The notes below the pieces were generated by a model. That model was not told the DNA's origin and searched no databases. It saw only the letters and a program-made list of their open reading frames with translations. The position numbers were made by a program, and so were the translations under genes. From Aphrocallistes beatrix (taxonomy: Eukaryota > Porifera > Hexactinellida > Sceptrulophora > Aphrocallistidae): DNA of 64,000 nt. This document shows positions 26,496 to 61,052 of the stretch, piece by piece; the stretch's first letter is position 1; the number at the start of each line of letters is the position of its first letter. The stretch covers positions 1,736,001-1,800,000 of the forward strand of contig OY725496.1 of assembly GCA_963281255.1 (NCBI GenBank), given 5' to 3'.

Positions 26496-27389
26496 GTAAT
26501 TTATAATATCATTTATCTGCTTTGTTTTAATTCATGTCGAAGGATGTAAATTTAAATGTCACTCTTTGAGGATTTTAATTGAGTATCTCGTTAATATCCG
26601 TATGTCACTATCAGTGAACGACTAAACTGTACATAATAAGTCTAAATTAAAGTACTCAATGTTAGTTATTTCTGAAATTCATTTATACACGTACGTTATA
26701 GTCTTTATATTACCAAATTTGACCTCAAGAAACATTAGCATGAAAACAAGTAGTCAAGAGTTCATACCAACTGGTGAACTTTTTAAATGTTGTTGTTGTA
26801 GTATTAATTTGTTTAGGGCTTAGCCATAAGTTTAATACATTACCAAAGCCGAAGTGTGTTTAAAGTGTAGAAATAATGACTCTTTGTACATTGCATTTGA
26901 CTAGGCTGAAGGCCAGTTATATTTAGCCATTACGATTTGAATTCCTTTCTTTGTTAATTAGCTATCCAATAGTATCTAAATTTAGCCTCTAGTAGTCTAG
27001 TTCATCATACCATTTTATTATCTTATTTTGTAAAACTGCTTTTTCTAACATGCTAGCGATGAAGACTAAGTCTACAAATAAATTTGTGGTTGAAACAGAT
27101 GCATGATGCTATTTATCATCAACCCAGCCTAGAATAGAAATGCTCGTCAATTAGAAACAACATTAAAAATCGCATTAAACTATTTCAAAGTATTAGGTTC
27201 AAAAATAGTATAATGTAATATACAAACTATCATCAAATTCTGCTTATTATTAGCTATGAGTAAAATTACTATTCTCAGAGAGTTGGTCGGGAAGATTTTG
27301 GATATTAGAAAATGGGTAGCTTTCTCATCTTCAATTGCGTCTTGTTTTAATCACCTGAGCAAATATTCTTATTATATTTTTTTTTCTAG
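26496..27389 (+). other. UBR4: UBR4 intron, 894 bp
   Basis: GTAATT donor and TTTTTTTTTCTAG acceptor. It holds no recognised TE, unlike its neighbours. Confidence 0.85.
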
Positions 27390-27809
27390 AGAACCTAATT
27401 TTTGGTCAAGTATACATGATATTAAACTTTTAATTCTGAGATTTACAACTGAGGCTTCATTTTGTCAAGATTCTGGCGGTGGAAGTAAATATAGTAATAT
27501 TCGTTTTCTCAGTTATATGTTTGGATATTCTTTCTATTTACTGCAAGCATCCAGAAGCTTTCAGAAGGAATTTAATAACTTAGCACTATTTCTGGAAAAT
27601 GAATCTGAAAAATGTATTACATCTTCTTATGAATTGGATGGACCAGTCTTTTTTCTTGTATCCTCCATATTTCTGATGTCAGGTGAAGAATGGAGTTTAA
27701 ATAAAATAAAGTTTCTCCGGCGTGTTATAATAACTGGTCATGCAAGGTGCATATCATCTAAAGTGCAGAGTGGAAATGCTCAAGAACCTTTAGATTTCAA
27801 CTTTTACAG
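27390..27809 (+). CDS. UBR4: UBR4 exon: C-terminal E3 module
   Basis: Follows acceptor TTTTTCTAG and ends at donor GTATAA. Phase 2 in and out: AG|A gives Arg at the left junction and AG|G gives Arg at the right. It encodes REPNFWSSIHDIKLLILRF, SGGGSKYSNI, LENESEK, SSYELDGPVFF and WSLNKIKFLRRVIITGHAR. These match, in order, conserved UBR4 segments around the UBR zinc-finger-interacting region. The open frame begins earlier, at 27256, but that stretch is intron with no UBR4 similarity. Confidence 0.92.
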
Positions 27810-28710
27810 GTATAATTAATGATTATACATTTATTAATCGTTTAAGAAATTGGATGTTTACTGTATTCCAATCATCATTAATCATTTTATCCTTTAGACC
27901 TCAAACATTTTTATCTAAATAATTAAAAGCAACTTTGTTGCATGTGCTAATTTTGAAGATCTTGAGTCATAAATTATAATTTTCTTTCCAAATTTTTAGA
28001 GCAAACATTGTAGAATCATGTGTTTGAAGCTACGACAAACTAGTACATGGTTCCCCAAAGTCATACAGTGATTTACAGTGTGCTTTCCACGCATTTGGAA
28101 GCGGTATCAGTCCATTAGACTTGATTCCCATTTGGTATATAGCTTTTTGCCTCGATTTTGAAGTTATCGTTCGATTCGCCTTGATTTTAAAATATTTCTT
28201 GATGTGTCTTGAATTTAATGAATAACAGGTTTATTTATCACGATCATGGTTAATAGTCTGTCAATATATATTCAATATCATGGCCAATCGCCTGATATAC
28301 CATTAGAGCCAAAAGTCAATCAGACCGATAGGCCAAAAATTCTCTGAAGAGCAGGGTTACATCTATCCATCCCCCATGAAATTTTTAAATTATTTAACTC
28401 CCCTCGGAATCCGGGTCTAGATTCGACCGTGCTGGTGAGAGCCCTGTCCTATTTTGAGTGACCTTATGATGAAAATATTTATTCACTAAATTTATATTCC
28501 AATTCAATGAACTAACACCAAGAATTTACAATTTATGCCTTAAATATCAAAATGTACAAGACATTAATGTATTGTCATCAACGAAAGGCTGGCTAAGCAT
28601 TTCTATTATAAACAAAGCCAAAGTTACATTCTTTAAAAATTAATCAAAATGTTTGGTCGCGTATTGAACCCTGATATTTGTAGCAGATTTACATGCATTA
28701 ATAGCTTATA

Positions 28711-37891: not shown

Positions 37892-38370
37892 CAAGCGCGC
37901 TTCGCTTGCTTGCGCTGCGCTGCTGGCGGACATTATGTCCGCCGGATGCGCCCTTTGGGCGCGTGTGGTCACCATTATTTAGTTATTTGGGAGATATCAT
38001 CTCTAAATACGTCTGTCCTACTGTTACAATCGATATCGCACTAAAAATCACCAAATTAGTCAATTTTTAAAATGTTGATGCATAATGATGACGTCATAAC
38101 TAAGTGATGAGTCATCATTTATTTATGATAGTTATATCATGTGAGGAATATCTTTATACACATTCTATTAAAATTTCAGCCTTCTATCTTCTAAAATGGC
38201 TGAGTTATAGCCGAAAAACTGAAATTTTTAATTATAAAAAAGGTGACAATGACGTCATAATTCCATGATGAGTCGACATTTTCGTCACTCTGAGCTCAGA
38301 AGTGGAGTCATAGCTAAAAGACTCCCACATGCCAAAAATCAGCTTTCGCGCCTGGCAGTTTCTTCAATCA
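37892..38370 (-). mobile_element. Helitron-like unit truncated against a mariner relic
   Basis: Begins CAAGCGCGCTTCG and runs to TTTCTTCAATCA at 38370, where mariner sequence takes over abruptly. The AT run and 5' block are missing. Confidence 0.6.
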
Positions 38371-39335
38371 AGAAAGAATGAAATGTTCAAATACCTTGGT
38401 CCGGTTGGTGTAGAATATTGTTGAAAGAGTAATTTTCTTAAGCATCCCACGCCTATTTGTCTTTATTGAATAACGTAATCTCGTCATTAGATTAGCATAA
38501 TATGCTCCAGTAACAGTTGTATTCTTTGGGAGGTAATCTAGCAACAATGGTCCCTTAGAATCCCAAAATATTGATAGCATCACCTTTGATTTCGACTTTG
38601 GACAAGGATTACCAAGTCGAGGGACTTTGGGCTTGGGGGAATCTTCATGTCTCCCTTCTGCGGCCTCGTTAATAATTAAAGGATCATGGTAGTATATCCA
38701 GGTTTCATCTCCTGTAACCAGTCTTGCGTGAAAATCTGGATTGGACATATACAGGTCAAGCATTCTTTTGCTAGTCTCCACTCTGACCCGTATTTGATCT
38801 TCAGATAACATTTTTGGTATCCACTTTGCTTTGAATTTCTTGAGCCCAAGTTGGTCATGAATAATTGAGTGAATAGTCCCAATTGATAAATCTACTCTAT
38901 TCGCAATATTTCTTATCGATATGCAGTGATCCTCTCTATCATATCAGTAATAGAGTGGATCGTGTCTGGATGGTGTGAACATTGGGATCTTCCTGATCGA
39001 GGGTTATCTGTTATACTTTGTCTTTCACGTTTGAATTCAGCATGTCATTTTGCAACCATAGATTGACTTGGGGCATTGTCATTGAGAACCTCTCATCTCT
39101 TTAAACGTTTCTGTATCGCTAAATCCTTTTTTACAGATGAATTTAATGACTGCTCTAAATTCTCAAAATTCATTTTTTCTCAAACAACACAAAGGAAGAT
39201 CTGAATATTTATCAGAATATCGTTGCTAGGAAAAATCTAAGTAAATACAAAAAATATGATTAAAGTATCCTAAGCTAAAGATACCCTCTATTAGTATTCT
39301 AAATACTATTTTCCACGAACTTATTGAACACCCTG
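38371..39335 (-). pseudogene. Mariner transposase relic, C-terminally truncated
   Basis: The right terminus reads (minus strand) CAGGGTGTTCAATAAGTTC next to TA at 39336. On the minus strand the N terminus reads MNFENLEQSLNSSVKKDL, then a helix-turn-helix-like stretch with frame breaks (DNPRSGRSQCSHHPDT). The 38811-38368 frame gives ARLVTGDETWIYYHDP (first catalytic Asp), KSKVMLSIFWDSKGPLLLDY and the TGAYYANLM box typical of SETMAR-like mariners. The second and third catalytic regions are missing: the gene stops at the junction with the Helitron-like unit. Confidence 0.85.
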
Positions 39336-39530: not shown

Positions 39531-39984
39531 GTGACAATTCAAACACATTATTTCTCCTTACAGTTGTACACATCTTTAAACTGAAATTTGAAATCGTTTT
39601 AGGCTTATAGCATACTTTGGATGCTTCGGATAAGGTTATCTAGGATCTAGCCCTGGATCTCTGAGGGGGGCTAAGAATGATGAAAATATTTTCAGGAGGT
39701 CCTTGTTCCCACCTTCGAGGGGTAGTAACTTCAGTGTTGGATATATTTCCGAACCTCAGAGGTGGGTAAAGGAGGTCTAAAATATTTTCAGGAGGCTCGA
39801 TGCAACCCTGATTCCAAGTCAGGAGTATTAACTGGGTACAACTACACTGCCTGAACAAAAGTATTCGTACACCCCATAATTCCCTATACAAATAGTTATA
39901 ATACTGATTTATTTAGAGAGTCAAGGTATTTAATTGGTAAGAGATACGCTTATTTTAACTTCAAATTCGAATTACTCACTTTTT

Positions 39985-40800
39985 ACGAGTGTTATCTTAG
40001 CGGCGGATTCGCATGTCACGTTCAAATATGAATAACTCAGCAAGCATGTGTCCTAGATGAAATCTAATTGCACCATTGTGTAGAGGAGCATTGGTGCATT
40101 CATATTTGATATATGAAATTTTAATATCCTGCGTGATGAGTAAGCAGTGACACTTTTAGTCCATGTCACGTATCTGGTGGAATAAGTCAGTAAATATGAA
40201 TGGTAGCAATTAGCCCTTTTAACCACATGAAGATGAGCTTTGGTGCACCCCTGAAATCCATTTTCAAGACTAAATTCGGAAAACTGGCTGAATGGCAGGG
40301 GGCCAAAGTTTGTTGTCGTAGCGGCGGATTCGCATGTCACGTTCAAACATGAATAACTCAGCAAGCATATGTCGTAGATGAAATCTAATTGCACCATTGT
40401 GTAGAGGAGCATTGGTACATTCATATTTGATATATGAAATTTTAATATCCCGCGTGATGAGTAAGCAGTGACACTTTTAGTCCATGTCACGTATCTGGTG
40501 GAACAAGTCAGTAAATATGAATAGTAGCAATTAGCCCTTTTAACCACACGAAGATGAGCTTTGGTGCACCCCTGAAATCCATTTTCAAGACTAAATTCGG
40601 AAAACTGGCTAAATGGCAGGGGGCCAAAGTTTGTATTTACTAGTTTGGTAATAGGCATAACTTCATACTGGTATCCAACTAGGATGTGATCTAGACAAAC
40701 TTAGCTATTTATCCATAGTTATCTACGCTCTTGATAAATGTCACTGAACAATTGATGCATAATTCGTGGTGGTCAATTCATAATTAATTAAATATTCCTC
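39985..40800. repeat. Left terminal arm with 321-bp tandem duplication
   Basis: Copy one runs from about 40001 and copy two from about 40322, differing at scattered positions. The arm is inverted relative to 45573-46086. The tandem copies keep an open minus-strand frame (40658-40053), which is more simply explained by copying of one arm sequence than by coding function. Confidence 0.8.
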
Positions 40801-40831
40801 CTTTTTTATTTTGATCCCAGCCTAATTAGTA

Positions 40832-40839
40832 TATATAAA
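40832..40839 (+). promoter_or_regulatory. TATA-like box upstream of the transposase gene
   Basis: TATATAAA about 165 bp before the first ATG, at the inner edge of the left arm. AT-rich context makes chance occurrence likely. Confidence 0.25.
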
Positions 40840-40893
40840 TTTTTTTTTTTCGAACTAACATTATTCAAACTTGACGTTCTCATACATTTTTTT

Positions 40894-40949
40894 TCGCATT
40901 TCGCATTTCCCATTTCGTAATTTGCATTCCGCATTTCCATTATCGTTCG
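40894..40949 (+). repeat. Iterated GCATTTC motif upstream of the transposase
   Basis: CGCATTTCGCATTTCCCATTT followed by GCATTCCGCATTTCC: four to five imperfect copies of a 7-11 bp motif between the left arm and the gene. It could be a subterminal transposase-binding array or a promoter element. Confidence 0.5.
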
Positions 40950-41004
40950 CTTTTTTCTTCTCGATTTTTCCTCTGACTACTTCCATAATTCTAAGTCAGA
41001 AAAG

Positions 41005-41248
41005 ATGAATAATACGGAGAGTATTACTTTTTGTCAGGCCTTACTCCAATTGGGATACGATTCTTTTGAATCTTTAAATTCAGCATTAATTAAAGAAAAC
41101 AGGAGAGCAAGCAATTCTCTTTGGGGAAAATTGTGCCTTTCGATGTACGGAGTCAACAGAGAGAGGAAACGCACGTTACTCTATACTAATTGGATGAAGA
41201 ATCGCGGTCAGATAAAGGACGTAGTAGCTGCTGAGATGTCATCTAAGG
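41005..41248 (+). CDS. DDE-OTU transposase, exon 1
   Basis: Opens with ATG at 41005 (AAAAGATGA context) and encodes an 81-residue segment. MNNTESITFCQALLQLGYD is followed by a basic helical stretch, LWGKLCLSMYGVNRERKR then LLYTNWMKNRGQ, suggestive of a DNA-binding helix bundle. The frame stays open to a stop at 41320, but a consensus donor GTGAGT begins at 41249. Joining there to 41307 (after TTGATAG) or 41319 (after GAAGATAG) brings the reading into the main frame. Splicing is inferred from sequence only. The alternative is a frameshift between overlapping frames. Confidence 0.6.
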
Positions 41249-41306
41249 GTGAGTTGAACAAGTCAGACGATAAGGTGGTATATCAAGGGAACTCATATCT
41301 TGATAG

Positions 41307-44278
41307 GAGTGAAGATAGCTAAGAGTGGAAATAATGATAGTTGTCTTGAGTCAACCCCCATGTTAGATATTCCACAATCTAATCAAGAACTGGAACTTGA
41401 TTGCTTAAACGTTGAAATAACTAATACTAAAAGTGATCGAAATCTCAACGATGCGCTAAATCTCCCTAGTATTTCTAATGGAGAATTTAATTTTACTTTG
41501 GGTGAATGGGAAAATATAGCGATGTTACAGGGCAACCGAGCTATCTTTTCGAAGGATTGGACCAATGTCTTTAATGCTAAGATCGAAGATAAATTTGTTT
41601 GTGTTTTTTGCTTTAAATGCAAAAAAATAGGTAAAATTAATAGTAGGAAAAGCAATACTTGTTTTTTCACTGCTCATGCAGAATGCAAGTTTTCTAATTG
41701 TCTTCGTTTTAAATTTACAATACAGAATGAACCTTTTACCTCTCGGCCTGTTAACATTACTGTCAATTATGAAGTAATGGGTACCTTATCCCCTGAGCAT
41801 TCAAATGTGGACATTGTCTATTCAAGAAAATTGTCGAATAGTTTAAGATTGCAGGTAGCCTCTAATTTAACTGATAAATCAGTTGGTAACTACTTTTATG
41901 AACAGTTTCCCCATCCCAATTGTGAGAGCTCTGCGTTATCTTTTGGTAACTTTAACAATGTAGGAAGTGCCTGCGTCTTGAGGAAGGCTAAGTTTGATTT
42001 GTCTTGTCTTCAAAGGTTTTCTAACGATAATTGGAGCGAACTTTCTGGTTTACAGGAATATTATAGAAATATTACAGTTAATAACATACTTCGAGGGTAC
42101 ATCCAGTCTTTAGGCCATGATCCATTCATAGTTCATATGTATTCTCAAGATCAAATTCAAGTTTTGAATTATTTTAAGGGTAAGAAAGTAATTGTGCATT
42201 TAGATTCTACCGGGTCTATTATTAGAAAAATAAACTCGAGCCAAAAGCGTGTTTTTTATTATACATTGACTATTCGTCACCCTGAGGTCACAACCAGCCC
42301 TTTGCCATTAGCTGAAATGATTAGTTCAGCTCATTCTTCTGCAGAAATATCTTATTTCTTACATAAATGGTCTCTTGACTCAAAAAAGGTCTTAAGTAGA
42401 GAAATTAATATTGGCCATGTAGAGATTGATTATAGCTGGGCCCTTATTCATAGTGTTTGTAACGCTTTTATTAAATCTGATATTTTCACATACTTGGAGA
42501 AATGTTGGAAGTTATTATTTAGTCAGGAGGAGGTTTGTATGCAATCCGGTGTTATTCTTCACTTGTGTTCCGCTCACCTAATTAATGGAATAGCTTTTAA
42601 TGTGGATAAAAAGTTTAAGTTATCTAAACCAGTTCGAAAATTGTTTCTTCATACTATAGGATATATGATAAATTGTACGCAAATGATAAATTTAGATAGT
42701 GTTTTTATGGATTTGTGTTATGTCTTTTTAAACCGAAATTTCAATAAGAATGTTGAGAAGCATATACAAAATTTAGAATCATTTATTAGTTATAGTAAAA
42801 GTTGCGATGATGAATATGTTGAACCCGAGGATAGTAATGATTTGACATCTTGTGTGGAAAATGAGGGTAAAACCTATCGCGATAAATCCCCATTTGGTAA
42901 GCATTTTAACACAATTTATGAGAAGTGTAAATCCGAAATTTTACTTTTGAATGATGAGAAACCTTGTTTGGAAGCCAACCCTTGTTATAACCCCGAAATT
43001 ATTGAATATCTACTTACCCATTATATGGCTATAATTCCACTATGGTCAGGCATTATTTTGGGGTTTGGTTCCAGTGAATCCGATGTTTACATGAGTCATT
43101 ATAGTAATGCAATTGTAGAAAATTGGATGCGTATAGTAAAGATAGACATATTAAAGTCTCGTACTGGTTTAAGACCAGGGGATCTGATAAGGATTATGCA
43201 TCCTAACATAATTAAAAGATTAGCAGCTTTTTGCTTTGCTTTTCATCCTAGAGCTAAGAAGGTATTTAAAAGTTATAAGCGTAAAAGAGATCCTTCTGAG
43301 GAGAATTGTCAGGAGGAATGGCAGAGAAGGAGTAAGAAGAAATGTAATAGCTATTTAGTATCTAAATCTATCAGTTTTTCTCAAGTTAGGCCATTAGTAA
43401 ATAATAAAAATAAAAGAAAATTAGATGCAGGAAATGACATAAATGAAACTGAAAAAAAGAAATGTAAAATTAGTGTAGATAAAAATGAAAAAACAAAGCT
43501 AAAATTTGTACCTAGGTTGCGTCAGAGATTATCTGATTTGAAAAAACGTGACTTTTCTGTCTCACGAATCAGTGATAATATCGACAGTGACGCTGTCGAT
43601 ATTATCACTGATTCAGATCTTGTAGAACAAGATATTTTACGTTTAAAGTTGCCTCCCTTCCGCCCGCCAAATAAAGACTGGCAAAAAAGTATATGTAGTA
43701 AATGGAATATTTTGGTTTCTAATTATATTAATTATGAAATCGATCCTCAGTTGGATCAACAAGATCTTAGAGAATGTAAACCTTGTGTTGTTGAAAACAT
43801 AGTGGGTGATGGAAATTGTTACTTTCGAGCTCTTTCGTTTATCCTTACCGGTAGTCAGGAAAATCATTTTAATTTACGCACAATTATAGTTAATAACATG
43901 TTAGGTAGATTAAAAAATAGTTGTGACGCCTTTTTAAGGACTAAATATGTTTACCAGCAAAGTAACTACAGAAGTGTAAAGGATTGGGTAAATAAGACAG
44001 GGATGGATAAGAATGGGAAGTGGGCAGCGGATTTGGAAGTATTTGCGACAGCGTTACTTTTTGAAACCGATATATGGGTATATTTAGGACCTGGAGGTAC
44101 ACGCTGGATTGGATTTTCTGGTAAAGGGAAAAAATTAAATGAATTTTCGATTGTCCCTCTATATTTAGAATATATCTACAAAATACTGGCTGTCATTATG
44201 AACCTGTTTTGTCTGTTAATAATATGTAATCCAATTCTTCAATTAAGCCAATTAAATATATTCAACTTCTATATATGA
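41307..44278 (+). CDS. DDE-OTU transposase, main exon
   Basis: An open frame of about 990 codons. Regions in order: a cysteine/histidine cluster (VCVFCFKCKKIG, then TAHAECKFSNC) near codons 99-134, likely zinc-binding. Next is a DDE/D-like core: VIVHLDSTGS with Asp at 42203, HVEIDYSWALI with Asp at 42428, HLCSAHLI giving the CxxH typical of Mutator/hAT folds, and SNAIVENWMRIV with Glu at 43118. A lysine/arginine-rich linker (43255-43560) could serve nuclear import. The OTU domain follows, with VGDGNCYFRALS and catalytic Cys at 43817. OTU enzymes cleave ubiquitin chains. The motif CHYEPVLSV that should supply the OTU His occurs in another frame at 44191-44217. The first ATG within this frame is 41360. 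Confidence 0.8.
43566..43614. repeat. Perfect 22-bp inverted repeat inside the transposase gene
   Basis: GAATCAGTGATAATATCGAC plus AG (43566-43587) is exactly complementary to 43593-43614 across the 5-base loop TGACG. It encodes an acidic stretch (ISDNIDSDAVDIITDSD) between the basic linker and the OTU domain. Confidence 0.95.
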
Positions 44279-44279
44279 C

Positions 44280-45269
44280 TTTATTTTATTTTGTATCCGT
44301 GCTGTTGTTGTCATTGTTATTGTTTTTATTTTGTATTCATGTTGTTTTTGTTTTTTCTTTTTACCTCTTCATAGCACTTAGTGATATTATTTATCAAATG
44401 CAATCAACTCATTCTCATTTGTTGTCATAACCTGGAAGTGTAGAGTGCGTCAAACACACATTTCTAAAGAATGTACCACACAAGAAGTTTCTATTTTTCA
44501 CAAATCAACATAGTCTATTTATATATCAAATATTTGACTTGCCCGAAATTTGGAACCAACAAACTTCTGGTGATTCAAAAGAAGCATTCCACGCATACGT
44601 AATTACACTTCAGCAGATTTCTAAAAAGGGAAATTAGACGATTTACTCGCTCAAAATGGAAGTGCATTACAATAACAACACTGGCAGGGTGCTATACTTG
44701 TTAATTTTAATTAGTCAATAGCTTAGTCCAGAACCTCAATTGAATTGACTTTATTAATCAGAGTTATTTTAAGCATATTAATAAAGATGGTAAATTTACA
44801 ATTACAATTATTATTCATTATTTATCAAAAAGACAAAGCCGTGTGGTAAATGCATGTTAAATTCATTATAGTGGAACGAAATTACCTGATAGGTTTATTA
44901 GCAAGTATTTGTTTACTATTAATGCTCGTTATACAAAATTAAACTTCAAAAGTTTATAATATGTCCTAAAGCGAAAATAAATATATTAAAATCGGGAGCG
45001 ATTCCAATTTCTATTTTGACATTATGAGGCCTTTTTACGAAATTTCAATTTTTAGGTTGACTTGCATGAATTTTATGTCATCAGTGTATGATAAGGCTGT
45101 CCAAACCCTATCTCCTCGGGCAGCCACATTCCATTATTGGGGTCGCGGGGCGAAAATAAATGTAGATTCAGAAGTTAATATAAAATAATATGGCAATTAT
45201 TTCTCAAATGATAAATAAAAATAACTTATTTTTTAAATATATCAGTCAGTGAACTGAAGACAAGACTAC
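44280..45269. other. 3' region of the transposon, mostly non-coding
   Basis: T-rich then AT-rich sequence. AATAAA at 44976-44981 is a possible poly(A) signal. A short hAT-like GC-rich piece (CCTCGGGCAGCCACATTCC) is at about 45110-45150. Confidence 0.35.
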
Positions 45270-45467
45270 CTAATTATCTTCAACTCTAGGCACTTTGAGA
45301 TCAATGGATTTTCTCGAGAATGTTTGCAATACCTGTCTCAGAAATCCATTCACCTGCACATTTTGTATTCCCCTCTCGTGAGCAGTTTGGTAGTGGCTAC
45401 GGATATTATTACCTTGTATGCTGAGAATACCAGCACAAATCAAGCATTGGGGGTTTTCCATGATCAT
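45270..45467 (-). CDS. Possible small C2H2 zinc-finger protein of the transposon
   Basis: A minus-strand frame from ATG at 45467 (65 residues) with NPQCLICAGILSIQGNNIRS then HYQTAHERG, i.e. C-x2-C-x12-H-x4-H, close to a C2H2 finger. An in-frame stop lies about 70 bp upstream of the ATG, so it is small unless spliced. It lies just inside the right arm and converges with the transposase gene. It might be a second element-encoded DNA-binding protein or a remnant. Confidence 0.35.
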   Translation of the reverse strand: MIMENPQCLICAGILSIQGNNIRSHYQTAHERGIQNVQVNGFLRQVLQTFSRKSIDLKVPRVEDN

Positions 45468-45572
45468 ACCTGACAACCCTTTTAGAGCATTTCGCAGAAT
45501 TTGAACAGGAAATCCTTAAATAATCATCTTAACAATTTTATCCGTGAATAATAAATTTTGGTCTGTTCTTAC

Positions 45573-46086
45573 GAGGAATATTTAATTAATTATGAATTGA
45601 CCAGGAATTATGCATCAATTGTGTAAACAAATTCAGTGACATTCATCAAGAGCGTAGATAACTATGGATAAATAGCTAAGTTTGTCTAGATCACATCCTA
45701 GTTGGATACCAGTATGAAGTTATGCCTATTACCAAACTAGTAAATACAAACTTTGGCCCCCTGCCATTTAGCCAGTTTTCCGAATTTAGTTTTGAAAATG
45801 GATTTCAGGGGTGCACCAAAGCTCATCTTCATGTGGTTAAAAGGGCTAATTGCTACTATTCATATTTACTGACTTGTTCCACCAGATACGTGACATGGAC
45901 TAAAAGTGTCACTGCTTACTCATCACGCGGGATATTAAAATTTCATATATCAAATATGAATGTACCAATGCTCCTCTACACAATGGTGCAATTAGATTTC
46001 ATCTACGACATATGCTTGCTGAGTTATTCATATTTGAACGTGACATGCGAATCCGCCGCTGAATCGGCCGCTAAGATAACACTCGT
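45573..46086. repeat. Right terminal arm of the DDE-OTU transposon
   Basis: 514 bp, complementary to the left arm apart from the left tandem duplication and small differences. An extra 12-bp step (repeated CCGCT/GGCCGCT) lies close to the tip. It carries an open plus-strand frame (45722-46096) equivalent to that in the left arm. Confidence 0.85.
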
Positions 46087-46696
46087 CGCTTTTTAATCTT
46101 TCAACTTGTTTATACTCTCACAAGGTTAAAATTTTTCAAACTGTGCCACCTCATACCACCAATCATATACAATGGTGATCACTCGCGACATGTGGCATAG
46201 GAAAGCAAATGCTGAAAAACTTAATCTTGAAGAAGAGTAATTAAGTTGAAAACTTATAAAGTGGGTAATTTGAATGTGGAGAATTCAAATTTGAAGTCAA
46301 ATTAAGTGTATCTCTTACCAATTAAATACCTTGACTCGCTAAATAAATCAGTATTATAAATATTTGTATGGGGAATTATGGGGTGTACGAATACTTTTGT
46401 CCAGGCAGTGTATATCATGCATGGTTCGAACCATAACAACGGATAAGATACATTATCTAGGTTTTAATAGAATGATATATAATATCTAAATGGGTAAATA
46501 ATCTTCATTATACGATAAATATAAATTATGTGATTGTAAATAGTGATAAAGATACAGTAGTACCCTTAAGCTAGAAATTTCCTCTCATACTCTATATTGC
46601 AGTGGTTTTCGGAACCCCAAGTATGTTGTTACAATCAACCGGAACGCTACCGTCCCCGGAATCCCCGGAAATGCGTCCCCGGAACCCTTAAGAATC

Positions 46697-57547: not shown

Positions 57548-58890
57548 CAGGGTGGAACATAAGTGCTGTCCTATTGAGTTATGTCAAATAAATGGAATTT
57601 TAAGTTATAGTATGCTATGATTCACTTATCAATATAATCTCCATCTCTTTCTATTACAAGTTTGATACGATTAGGCATATCTGCCACCAAGTTCGTCAAA
57701 ATGTCTGGATCTATCTGACTCCACGCTTTTTTAACTATTTTCACAAGGGTATCAATATCACTTGGTTGTCCCATCTCATCGACCTTGCCTTTGACGATTG
57801 CCCAAAGATTCTCGATGGGATTTAAGTCTTGGGAGTTGCCTGGCCATTCTTCCTTCCTCCAAAAGTGGGGGAAATTGTTTTCGCACCACTCCTGAGTCAA
57901 TTTAGCCGTGTGGGCGGGGGCGCCATCTTGTTGAAAGATAATCTCGGACATGTTTCTTGACATCGCAAGCTTTAGGATTGAGCCCTTCTTGGCCCTACGT
58001 TTGAGAGCATCCTTACAAGTGTTTGCCAGAATAAAATCACGATAATAAGCTCCGGTTATAGTTTGGCCTTTGGGTACAATGTGCAGATCTGACAGAGCCT
58101 GGTGTGACATTATACCCCACACATGGACTTTAGGAGGAAATTTCACCTTGTAGCAAGGTGGGACAACTTCAGGGTTTCGTGCCCAAACACGATCATTTTG
58201 GCGATTAGGGGTAGAGAATAACTCAAAAGGACACTCGTCTGACCATAAAACCCTTTTAAAATCATCAACAGTCCACTCTTGGCGCTCTCTGGCAAACTTG
58301 AGACGATTTTCCTTCTGACGATTCGTTAGTTTCGGCCTTTTCATCCGTTTGTAAGATTTAGTACCTAAAGAATTCGCCAAATATCTTCGAACAGTGGTGT
58401 GAGTGATCGGATAGCCCATGCTTGTTATTCTTTTAGCCAATTTTCTGGTAGATTGCCTTCTTTTAGTAACTGATTTAGCAATTACGATTTTTGCCACACG
58501 GTGATATTTCGGCGGTCGTCCAGACCACGCTTTTGTCTCTAGTGTTTTCCCAGAATTGTGAATGCTGTACCAACGTCTAATCGAGCGTTCACTAACGTTA
58601 AGGGTCTGAGCAACTTCTTTTTGCGTCATACCTGCTACAACCATGCCGATTGCCTGAGATCTGAGCTCTAAACCGTGGTCATTGACATCCATATGCAAAA
58701 AATAAGCGCCAGAAATAAGGACAATATATAAATTTCAAAAATTAATAATTCAATTAGGAAATGCTATATAACATGACCTAATTGATAGTTTAAATGATTT
58801 TTGAAGTATAAAGCCTGTTATACTTATTGTTGCATAATAAGAGCAATTTCTAATTTATTTGATATAGGACAGCACTTATGTTCCACCCTG
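57548..58890 (-). mobile_element. Intact Tc1-like (DD37E) transposon, 1343 bp
   Basis: The terminal inverted repeats CAGGGTGGAACATAAGTG...CTAT match their complement on the right (ATAGGACAGCACTTATGTTC and on) without obvious mismatch over 27 bp. TA lies on both sides (57546-57547, 58891-58892). It contains one uninterrupted transposase gene. Matching ends and an open gene suggest a recent insertion. Confidence 0.92.
57622..58692 (-). CDS. Tc1/mariner-superfamily transposase, DD37E, full length
   Basis: 356 residues from ATG at 58692; an in-frame TTG two codons upstream is not needed. A homeodomain-like helix-turn-helix (GMTQKEVAQTLNVSERSIRR) starts near residue 21. A GRPPK hinge comes next, followed by a second HTH (RKLAKRI...TVRRYL). 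The catalytic triad follows: Asp152 in WSDECPFE, Asp256 in FQQDGAPAH, and Glu294 in DLNPIENLWAIVK. With 37 residues between the last two, this is the DD37E class known from mosquito ITmD37E and Traveler-type elements. It excises and reinserts the element at TA sites in the nucleus. No frameshift or stop, and no missing motif, so it may be active. Confidence 0.93.
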   Translation of the reverse strand: MDVNDHGLELRSQAIGMVVAGMTQKEVAQTLNVSERSIRRWYSIHNSGKTLETKAWSGRPPKYHRVAKIVIAKSVTKRRQSTRKLAKRITSMGYPITHTTVRRYLANSLGTKSYKRMKRPKLTNRQKENRLKFARERQEWTVDDFKRVLWSDECPFELFSTPNRQNDRVWARNPEVVPPCYKVKFPPKVHVWGIMSHQALSDLHIVPKGQTITGAYYRDFILANTCKDALKRRAKKGSILKLAMSRNMSEIIFQQDGAPAHTAKLTQEWCENNFPHFWRKEEWPGNSQDLNPIENLWAIVKGKVDEMGQPSDIDTLVKIVKKAWSQIDPDILTNLVADMPNRIKLVIERDGDYIDK

Positions 58891-60425: not shown

Positions 60426-61052
60426 TTATAAAACCTTTCCCAAATATTGAACGTTTTGATACTTATCACTTAATCTCTTCCATTGAACAAAGAAATGATC
60501 TGAGAAGGGATAAATTATTTTACCTGAAAGGGAAAGACTTTCGACACGGCAAATACTCTCAATATATACTATACTTATATATTTGAAATAAAGGTTCCTA
60601 TATAGAACTGATGCTAGACAAAGAGGAACGCAAGTACCTGGACCATTACATAGTAATACATTGGGCCTTAAACGAACTAATAATAAAAAACTATAAAATA
60701 ATGCACTTATTGTCTTGATTGTGGCAACTAGATAGCTCTGGCCTACTTCTCTTGCCCGCGGAATCTTTTCTATTCTGAAAGTAAAATGTTTAAGAATTGA
60801 ATCATTCGTTGCTAATTTTTCATATGTAATTTTATCATTGAAAGCAATGACAAAGTGAAGTTGTGAGAAGATTGAAGAGTCAAGTCCGGTTAAGATCGAC
60901 ATCATTTCTGTTGTATGACCCCCAGAACCAAAGACAACTAATGTAACAAGCTTTTGGCGCCTTAATCTTTTTGTTATTGATTTCTTGTAAATCTGAACCA
61001 GTGAAAAATATATCAAAATGATTATAGAAATGAGCACTATAATGAAATTCAT
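60426..61052 (-). CDS. ALG14: ALG14, UDP-GlcNAc transferase membrane subunit
   Basis: 208 residues, single exon, ATG at 61052 and TAA at 60426. ALG14 anchors the catalytic ALG13 to the cytosolic face of the ER. Together they add the second GlcNAc to dolichol-PP-GlcNAc in N-glycan assembly. Residues 2-22 form a hydrophobic N-terminal membrane segment (FIIVLISIIILIYFSLV). GSGGHTTEMMSIL (about 43-55) is the conserved family motif, followed by PRAREVGQSYLVATIKT, LLCNGPGTCVPLCLASV and the C-terminal signature IESICRVESLSLSGK...FSDHFFVQW. The length matches the family (about 210-240). No partner ALG13 is seen in the window. The gene is compact and lies between TE clusters. Confidence 0.95.
   Translation of the reverse strand: MNFIIVLISIIILIYFSLVQIYKKSITKRLRRQKLVTLVVFGSGGHTTEMMSILTGLDSSIFSQLHFVIAFNDKITYEKLATNDSILKHFTFRIEKIPRAREVGQSYLVATIKTISALFYSFLLLVRLRPNVLLCNGPGTCVPLCLASVLYRNLYFKYISIVYIESICRVESLSLSGKIIYPFSDHFFVQWKRLSDKYQNVQYLGKVL

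Follow-up and report, generated by a model that had tools for sequence, protein, structure and literature searches.

We examined a 64,000-nucleotide stretch of DNA from the hexactinellid sponge Aphrocallistes beatrix (assembly GCA_963281255.1, contig OY725496.1, positions 1,736,001 to 1,800,000 of the forward strand), referred to below as the window. Positions 39985-46086 of the window are one copy of a multi-copy, cut-and-paste DNA transposon family, whose protein joins a predicted DDE transposase to a C-terminal OTU domain. Leaving formal membership aside, the best explanation, and one that we consider probable, is that the family is Mutator/Rehavkus-like in anatomy and working and that its OTU domain serves as a deubiquitinase in cis.

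Structure and copies of the element

The whole element (39985-46086, + strand) is 6,102 bp long. The terminal sequence ACGAGTGTTATCTTAGCGGC starts at 39985, its inverse ends at 46086, and the first 20 and last 20 bases are inverse copies of each other. A previous reading made without database searches (the sequence-only reading) had placed a complete-looking transposon with long inverted arms between these two positions. Its limits are borne out to the base, since other copies, whose ends it had proposed to check, are bounded by the same terminal sequence.

The inverted arms of the window copy match over 429 nt at 99% and over 315 nt at 97% identity, the second match arising because the left end holds a 321-bp unit twice. 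The left arm lies at 39985-40800 and includes the two 321-bp units in tandem (39990-40634), and the right arm, with one unit, lies at 45573-46086. In seven other copies of the same family (family A) the arms vary in length from 338 to 835 bp, and all 16 elements measured across the lineage have arms of 190 to 1,087 bp. It should be mentioned that just inside the terminal 20 bases (39985-40010) the left end of the window copy is about 12 bp shorter than the right one, an offset also seen in the copy L012.

Copies were searched for in the window's own genome (100.5 Mb, 28 contigs), and all copy counts are lower bounds. At least 12 places, the window copy included, share 97% identity or more with the element along 5.2-6.2 kb. 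Besides these near-full-length copies, the genome holds many shorter pieces of it.

Target-site duplications and empty sites

In total, 28 loci of the lineage were fetched (L001-L028). For 23 of them, comprising 12 family A copies and 11 relatives, both termini were available; L009, L010, L015, L020 and L028, with one end or none, were left out of the duplication count. Before counting, the BLAST-found ends of L012, L013 and L022 were shifted by one to three bases onto the shared terminal motif, and those of L018 were set from terminal-motif sites. We found an exact 9-bp target-site duplication around 17 of the 23 elements (7/12 in family A, 10/11 in the others), the duplicated sequence being mixed between elements. 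Random 9-mers from the same flanks were identical in 3 of 190,759 cases. Three more elements are within one edit of a duplication, namely the window copy (L001) and L027 (8 bp with one mismatch) and L026 (10 bp with one mismatch), as expected for one-base slips. No target-site duplication was found at the ends of L003, L025 and L013.

The 8-bp flanking repeat with one mismatch noticed in the sequence-only reading is thus real in the window copy, but the duplication proper to the family is 9 bp long. Comparison with uninterrupted copies of the host repeat described below and with the 9-bp duplications of sister copies shows what has changed: the left duplication CACTTTTT (39977-39984) has lost its ninth base (A), and the right one, CGCTTTTTA (46087-46095), is one substitution away from CACTTTTTA. 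The flanks CACTTTTT(A) / CGCTTTTTA represent a 9-bp site in which one base has been substituted and another lost.

The window copy is inserted within a palindromic repeat. The left arm (39843-39982) and right arm (46273-46412) of this repeat were recognized by inverted-repeat comparison and from uninterrupted copies elsewhere, and joining the flanks restores its middle. After removal of the element and one duplication, the joined sequence could be aligned, through the junction, with the 40 candidates scored out of 1,319 (about 14-476 of 486 bases, 92-97% identity). A 31-base junction sequence, with at most one mismatch, occurs at 243 genomic sites and its reversed pattern at none; among the 100 of these sites that were listed, it reads CACTTTTTAATC in 99 and CGCTTTTTAATC in one. 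Matching empty sites, which the sequence-only reading had suggested looking for, are therefore present as 243 uninterrupted junctions. The repeat itself, about 465 bp long and present in hundreds of copies by the number of these sites, is probably a miniature element.

Domain organization of the transposase-OTU protein

The gene occupies 41005-44278, and it and all domains given below lie on the + strand. In the window copy it is frame-broken, with open frames at 41005-41322 and 41300-44278, and it breaks a second time inside the OTU part. Three of the eight copies compared (L002, L004 and L008) retain a single frame of 1,074 residues, and the intact copies examined have one open frame without introns. 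The earlier suggestion of one gene joining all domains consequently holds for the family but not for the window copy, which is split into two frames; the predicted size of about 1,070 residues is correct, and the DDE core with CxxH and the C-terminal OTU domain are supported.

Conservation was assessed in an alignment of six full-length proteins, from families A-E of this genome and P0002, in which the five relatives are 33-54% identical and the DDE, CxxH and OTU signature residues are all invariant. Residues 1-80 of the 1,074-residue protein (41005-41244) form a helical domain at the N-terminus in an AlphaFold2 model, with a mean predicted local distance difference test score (pLDDT) of 63-84 by block of ten residues; at a guess, this domain may bind DNA. 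It is followed by a Cys-rich, zinc-finger-like region (residues 155-258, 41471-41782) with invariant C198, C226 and C231, and with an equally invariant H264 just past it. Judging by its sequence, this region probably binds zinc.

The presumed catalytic residues of the core are D399 in HLDSTGS (42203-42205), D474 in EIDYSWA (42428-42430) and E704 in SNAIVENW (43118-43120), and the CxxH motif is formed by C520 and H523 in HLCSAHL (42566-42577). All of them are invariant in the six proteins; D474 and the CxxH motif were identified in a wider 22-row alignment as well, where D399 is conserved in at least 90% of rows. The full-length AlphaFold2 model, with a mean pLDDT of 55.8, did not resolve the core well enough, and only its N-terminal and OTU parts were used; modelled separately, the core gave a better model, in which an all-helical insertion separates the second Asp from the Glu. 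Its motifs and predicted fold identify the protein as a DDE transposase with an RNase-H-like core, this helical insertion and CxxH. The best solved folds in structural alignment of the core model were the P element and ISCth4, then Hermes, at 10-12% identity; a Foldseek search of the same model against the PDB gave no match at E <=0.001. Against a library of viral structures the core had one match at this threshold, the uncharacterized bracovirus protein O92526 (E 2.7e-9), which may be a related transposase.

A basic, fast-changing linker (residues 761-884, 43289-43657; 14-36% identity between families) leads to the OTU domain (43658-44208). The latter matches the Pfam profile PF02338 with E 7.2e-7 and 30.2 bits (cut-off 23.3), and all 14 of its Foldseek matches at E <=0.001 are OTU structures. 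By their titles, the PDB matches are deubiquitinases and viral ubiquitin/ISG15 proteases. D935 and C938 (43808-43819) and H1064 (44194-44196) are invariant, and we take them to be the catalytic residues; the histidine is out of frame in the window copy owing to the second break.

Related families in the genome

A protein search of the genome revealed relatives at 54%, 58%, 38-39% and 34-35% identity that extend into the OTU end, most of them with long open frames, together with broken pieces. Five copies of one further frame (family E) encode an identical protein of 981 residues, 38% identical in the core and 27% in the OTU domain. These copies are 99.8-100% alike over 5.5-6.7 kb in four comparisons, and the four with both ends fetched bear different exact 9-bp duplications; family E has therefore moved recently. 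Both of its inverted ends contain 185-bp tandem units, in 8.8 and 5.6 copies. The DGNC and HxxP signature of the OTU domain is kept in five families of the genome.

The families share related terminal motifs: ACGAGTGTTATCTTAGCGGC (A), ACGAGTGTGAAGTTGGC (C), ATGGATGTGAAGTTAGCAGC (D) and ATGGGTGTGAAGTTAGCAGC (E). Allowing one mismatch, we found 159 sites of the A/B type and 67 of the D/E type genome-wide, and none of the reversed patterns. Among 167 sites used for pairing (100 of the 159 A/B-type and all 67 D/E-type), 46 pairs face each other within 11 kb, and 24 of these enclose an OTU match. Eleven pairs, 295-3,001 bp apart and with no OTU match inside, look as non-autonomous derivatives would. 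At one locus (G000 C8:1793084-1803745) three like-oriented end motifs are spaced by exactly 5,321 bp, a pattern that tandem amplification of a portion of an element might leave.

Outside this genome, protein P0015 of the glass sponge Oopsacas minuta is 55% identical over 38% of the query and ends ahead of the OTU part. Over the core region compared, P0003 does not differ from the genome locus L012 and therefore is no independent relative.

Relatives with ULP1 in place of OTU

A wider profile search, which scored only candidates sharing most words, gave proteins P0016-P0022, among them P0016 of Lucilia cuprina. P0016-P0020 and P0022 share a homologous core in which D-[AS]-T-G, D-x-S-[WF]-A and CxxH are present, as is the Glu in rows that extend to it, and at the C-terminus they have ULP1 where the window family has OTU. 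In the Pfam search, Peptidase_C48 (ULP1) was above the cut-off in P0017, P0018 and P0019, below it in P0022, and gave no match in P0016, P0020 and P0021; P0016 and P0020 can be aligned to the ULP1 regions of the other relatives, and the sequence of P0021 ends early. In a midpoint-rooted tree built from 21 rows of the core, with P0007 omitted because of its length, P0016-P0020 and P0022 separate from the OTU group with support 100/99; P0021 is long-branched and its placement unsure. The transposase lineage thus has one branch with OTU and another with ULP1. Such an alternation suggests that what counts is the pathway rather than which protease serves it. By eye, four of the ULP1 relatives (P0017-P0020) have a Cys-rich, PHD-like tail, with no Pfam PHD match.

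In the sponge genome ULP1 is rare, with 9 matches, and OTU frequent, with at least 149. The idea that most of the latter belong to this lineage was not supported: 42 of the 149 lie within 4 kb of a DDE relative on the same strand. Many of the remaining 107 are in frames of about 140-300 residues. Ordinary Mutator-like elements (MULEs) are common beside the OTU lineage, with 121 matches to the canonical profile PF10551. The possibility that these canonical MULEs also carry OTU was likewise not supported, as 149 OTU and 121 MULE matches formed five pairs (four OTU matches) within 12 kb, in mixed orientation.

Selection and age of the fusion

Proportions of nonsynonymous and synonymous differences (pN/pS) were compared between regions; with synonymous sites close to saturation, only this contrast is informative. 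For the pair of families D and E they are 0.183/0.781 in OTU and 0.217/0.734 in DDE, and for A and B 0.292/0.695 and 0.266/0.767, respectively; pN in the linker is 0.449 and 0.457. Thus, the OTU domain and the DDE core are under a similar degree of constraint at the amino-acid level, and the linker next to OTU drifts. Young pairs show too few changes to tell (OTU dN/dS, the ratio of nonsynonymous to synonymous rates, is 0.13 on nine changes for D-D2 and 0.77 on four for C-C2). The order of identities between families is much alike in DDE and OTU, and families pair similarly by both, which suits one old fusion.

Possible role of the OTU domain

We suggest the following sequence of events. The N-terminal helical and Cys-rich domains would bind the terminal repeats, and the DDE core would excise the element and insert it at a 9-bp staggered cut. 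The OTU domain, in line with the proposal of the sequence-only reading, would free the transposase or host proteins of ubiquitin. Working in cis as a deubiquitinase, it could strip ubiquitin (or a relative) off the transposase itself or off chromatin or repair proteins at the cut, and this would keep the complex from degradation or dismantling until strand transfer and repair are finished. That relatives have ULP1, which cleaves ubiquitin-like modifiers, in the corresponding place points to ubiquitin-family signalling as the common target. A parallel is offered by Ginger1 transposases, which, in the excerpts of the paper describing them, bear either OTU or Ulp1 at the C-terminus, depending on the family, and not both in one protein; an active role of OTU/Ulp1 via DNA repair factors is proposed there (PMC2836005).

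Alternatively, the OTU domain could be a processing protease or a non-catalytic ubiquitin-binding tether, and the variable basic linker ahead of it would suit such a function. We regard this as unlikely, because the presumed catalytic residues are invariant, the PDB matches bear titles of deubiquitinases and viral ubiquitin/ISG15 proteases, and the replacement by ULP1 favours ubiquitin-like substrates. It is less likely still, and in our opinion quite improbable, that OTU is a passenger, i.e., a captured fragment of a host gene with no function in transposition. MULEs do tend to acquire host gene fragments, as excerpts of a MULE phylogeny state (PMC6446971), and OTU domains are abundant in the genome. 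However, the domain stands in the same frame and position in six full-length proteins with D935, C938 and H1064 invariant, it is constrained about like the DDE core while the linker drifts, and the families pair alike by both domains. A shared ubiquitin-family function is also the likelier explanation because ULP1 replaces OTU in the relatives and Ginger1 has the same two alternatives.

The identity of the element with Ginger1, a Gypsy-integrase-like transposon that shares the C-terminal OTU or Ulp1, is very improbable, since the available text on Ginger gives CCGG- or CCGT-specific duplications (PMC2836005) against the mixed 9-bp sequences found here, and the sponge core contains CxxH and a long insertion of helices, its best structural alignments being those with the P element and ISCth4. 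Finally, a host gene or a tamed transposase family, for which the long open frames kept in several families might speak, can practically be dismissed, because the termini match, exact 9-bp duplications flank elements at different sites, empty sites exist, some recent copies are identical and short derivatives are delimited by the element's ends; a single-copy host gene is refuted by the multiple end-bounded copies, the duplications and the empty sites.

With defined ends, empty sites, identical young copies, intact genes, and protease and transposase in one protein, these elements allow a direct test of whether transposition needs deubiquitination in cis.

Other features of the window

The window also contains a Tc1-like transposase (DDE_3, HTH_Tnp_Tc3_2) at 57622-58698 (-) and a mariner-type fragment (Transposase_1) at 38368-38811 (-). 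Two likely host genes were revealed, Alg14 at 60426-61052 (-) and a stretch matching the ubiquitin ligase UBR4 at 27256-27819 (+).

Comparison with known transposons

Three Mutator-type traits are present in the family: the 9-bp duplication (exact in 17/23), long arms (16/16) and a DDE core with CxxH, the last being a MULE trait. Sequence comparison gave no support for Mutator membership. The MULE profile PF10551 had no match in P0001 or 11 other A2 members at E up to 1, and hhalign found no match to the alignment A4, although the latter is weak evidence because A4 is small (four PF10551-bearing proteins of the genome). For MULEs in general, the part of the phylogeny paper available gives target duplications of 8-11 bp, and long terminal inverted repeats (TIRs) that are usual though not universal (PMC6446971).

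Rehavkus is described in the same excerpts by a 9-bp duplication, TIRs of 26-400 bp, a minisatellite and a PHD finger (PMC6446971), and Rehavkus-1_TC of Tribolium, in the passages concerned, by a 164-bp repeat in mostly five and eight units (PMC10218199). Compared by description only, the sponge families share with it the 9-bp duplication and tandem units in the inverted ends (321 bp in family A, 185 bp in family E), but they have OTU instead of a PHD finger; no Pfam match to a PHD finger was found in the OTU families.

The core fold with a helical insertion ahead of the Glu appears to be shared, by model and structural alignment at 10-12% identity, with the Drosophila P element, ISCth4 (which we take to be of the IS256 family) and the hAT element Hermes. 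P element and Hermes make 8-bp duplications, and none of the three is known to carry a protease.

For the Repbase entry MuDR-6_HM, in whose name HM stands for Hydra magnipapillata, comparison was again by description only; the sponge data comprise several families, with the two ends of the elements, their 9-bp duplications and empty sites. It resembles our family as a Mutator-like element with one gene and an OTU domain: the phylogeny table lists it under group 14 (Cnidaria, one gene) with 'Ovarian Tumour Gene' and supplies neither a duplication nor inverted repeats for it (PMC6446971). The main text of a paper on arthropod MULEs, so far as available, lacks the words OTU, ovarian, protease and peptidase (PMC13359780). 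Together with Ginger1 (PMC2836005), MuDR-6_HM (PMC6446971) contradicts the view of the sequence-only reading that there is no established DDE-OTU transposon family.

Thus, DDE enzymes with OTU are not new; what stands out here is the presence of several families in one genome with intact ends and recent copies, and with ULP1-bearing relatives. Prior publication of the family was neither shown nor excluded by our literature search, which covered open-licence PubMed Central papers, without Repbase. A bolder hypothesis, which we put forward tentatively and consider rather less likely than not to be correct in full, is that of a distinct, old and still-moving lineage, placed next to Mutator, Rehavkus, P and hAT and not within any named family. 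Its transposase would depend on a ubiquitin-family protease to work, OTU and the unrelated ULP1 would have replaced each other at one position, and the protease would act in cis on the transposition complex.

Proteases of the ubiquitin/SUMO type have become tied to DDE transposases repeatedly, in Ginger1, in Mutator elements with Ulp1 and in the lineage described here, and the portions of the papers available propose a role for them. With Ginger1 the sponge family shares a DDE enzyme with C-terminal OTU (PMC2836005), but according to the same excerpts Ginger1 has a Gypsy-integrase core and CCGG/CCGT-specific sites, in contrast to the helical-insertion core and mixed 9-bp duplications of the sponge elements.
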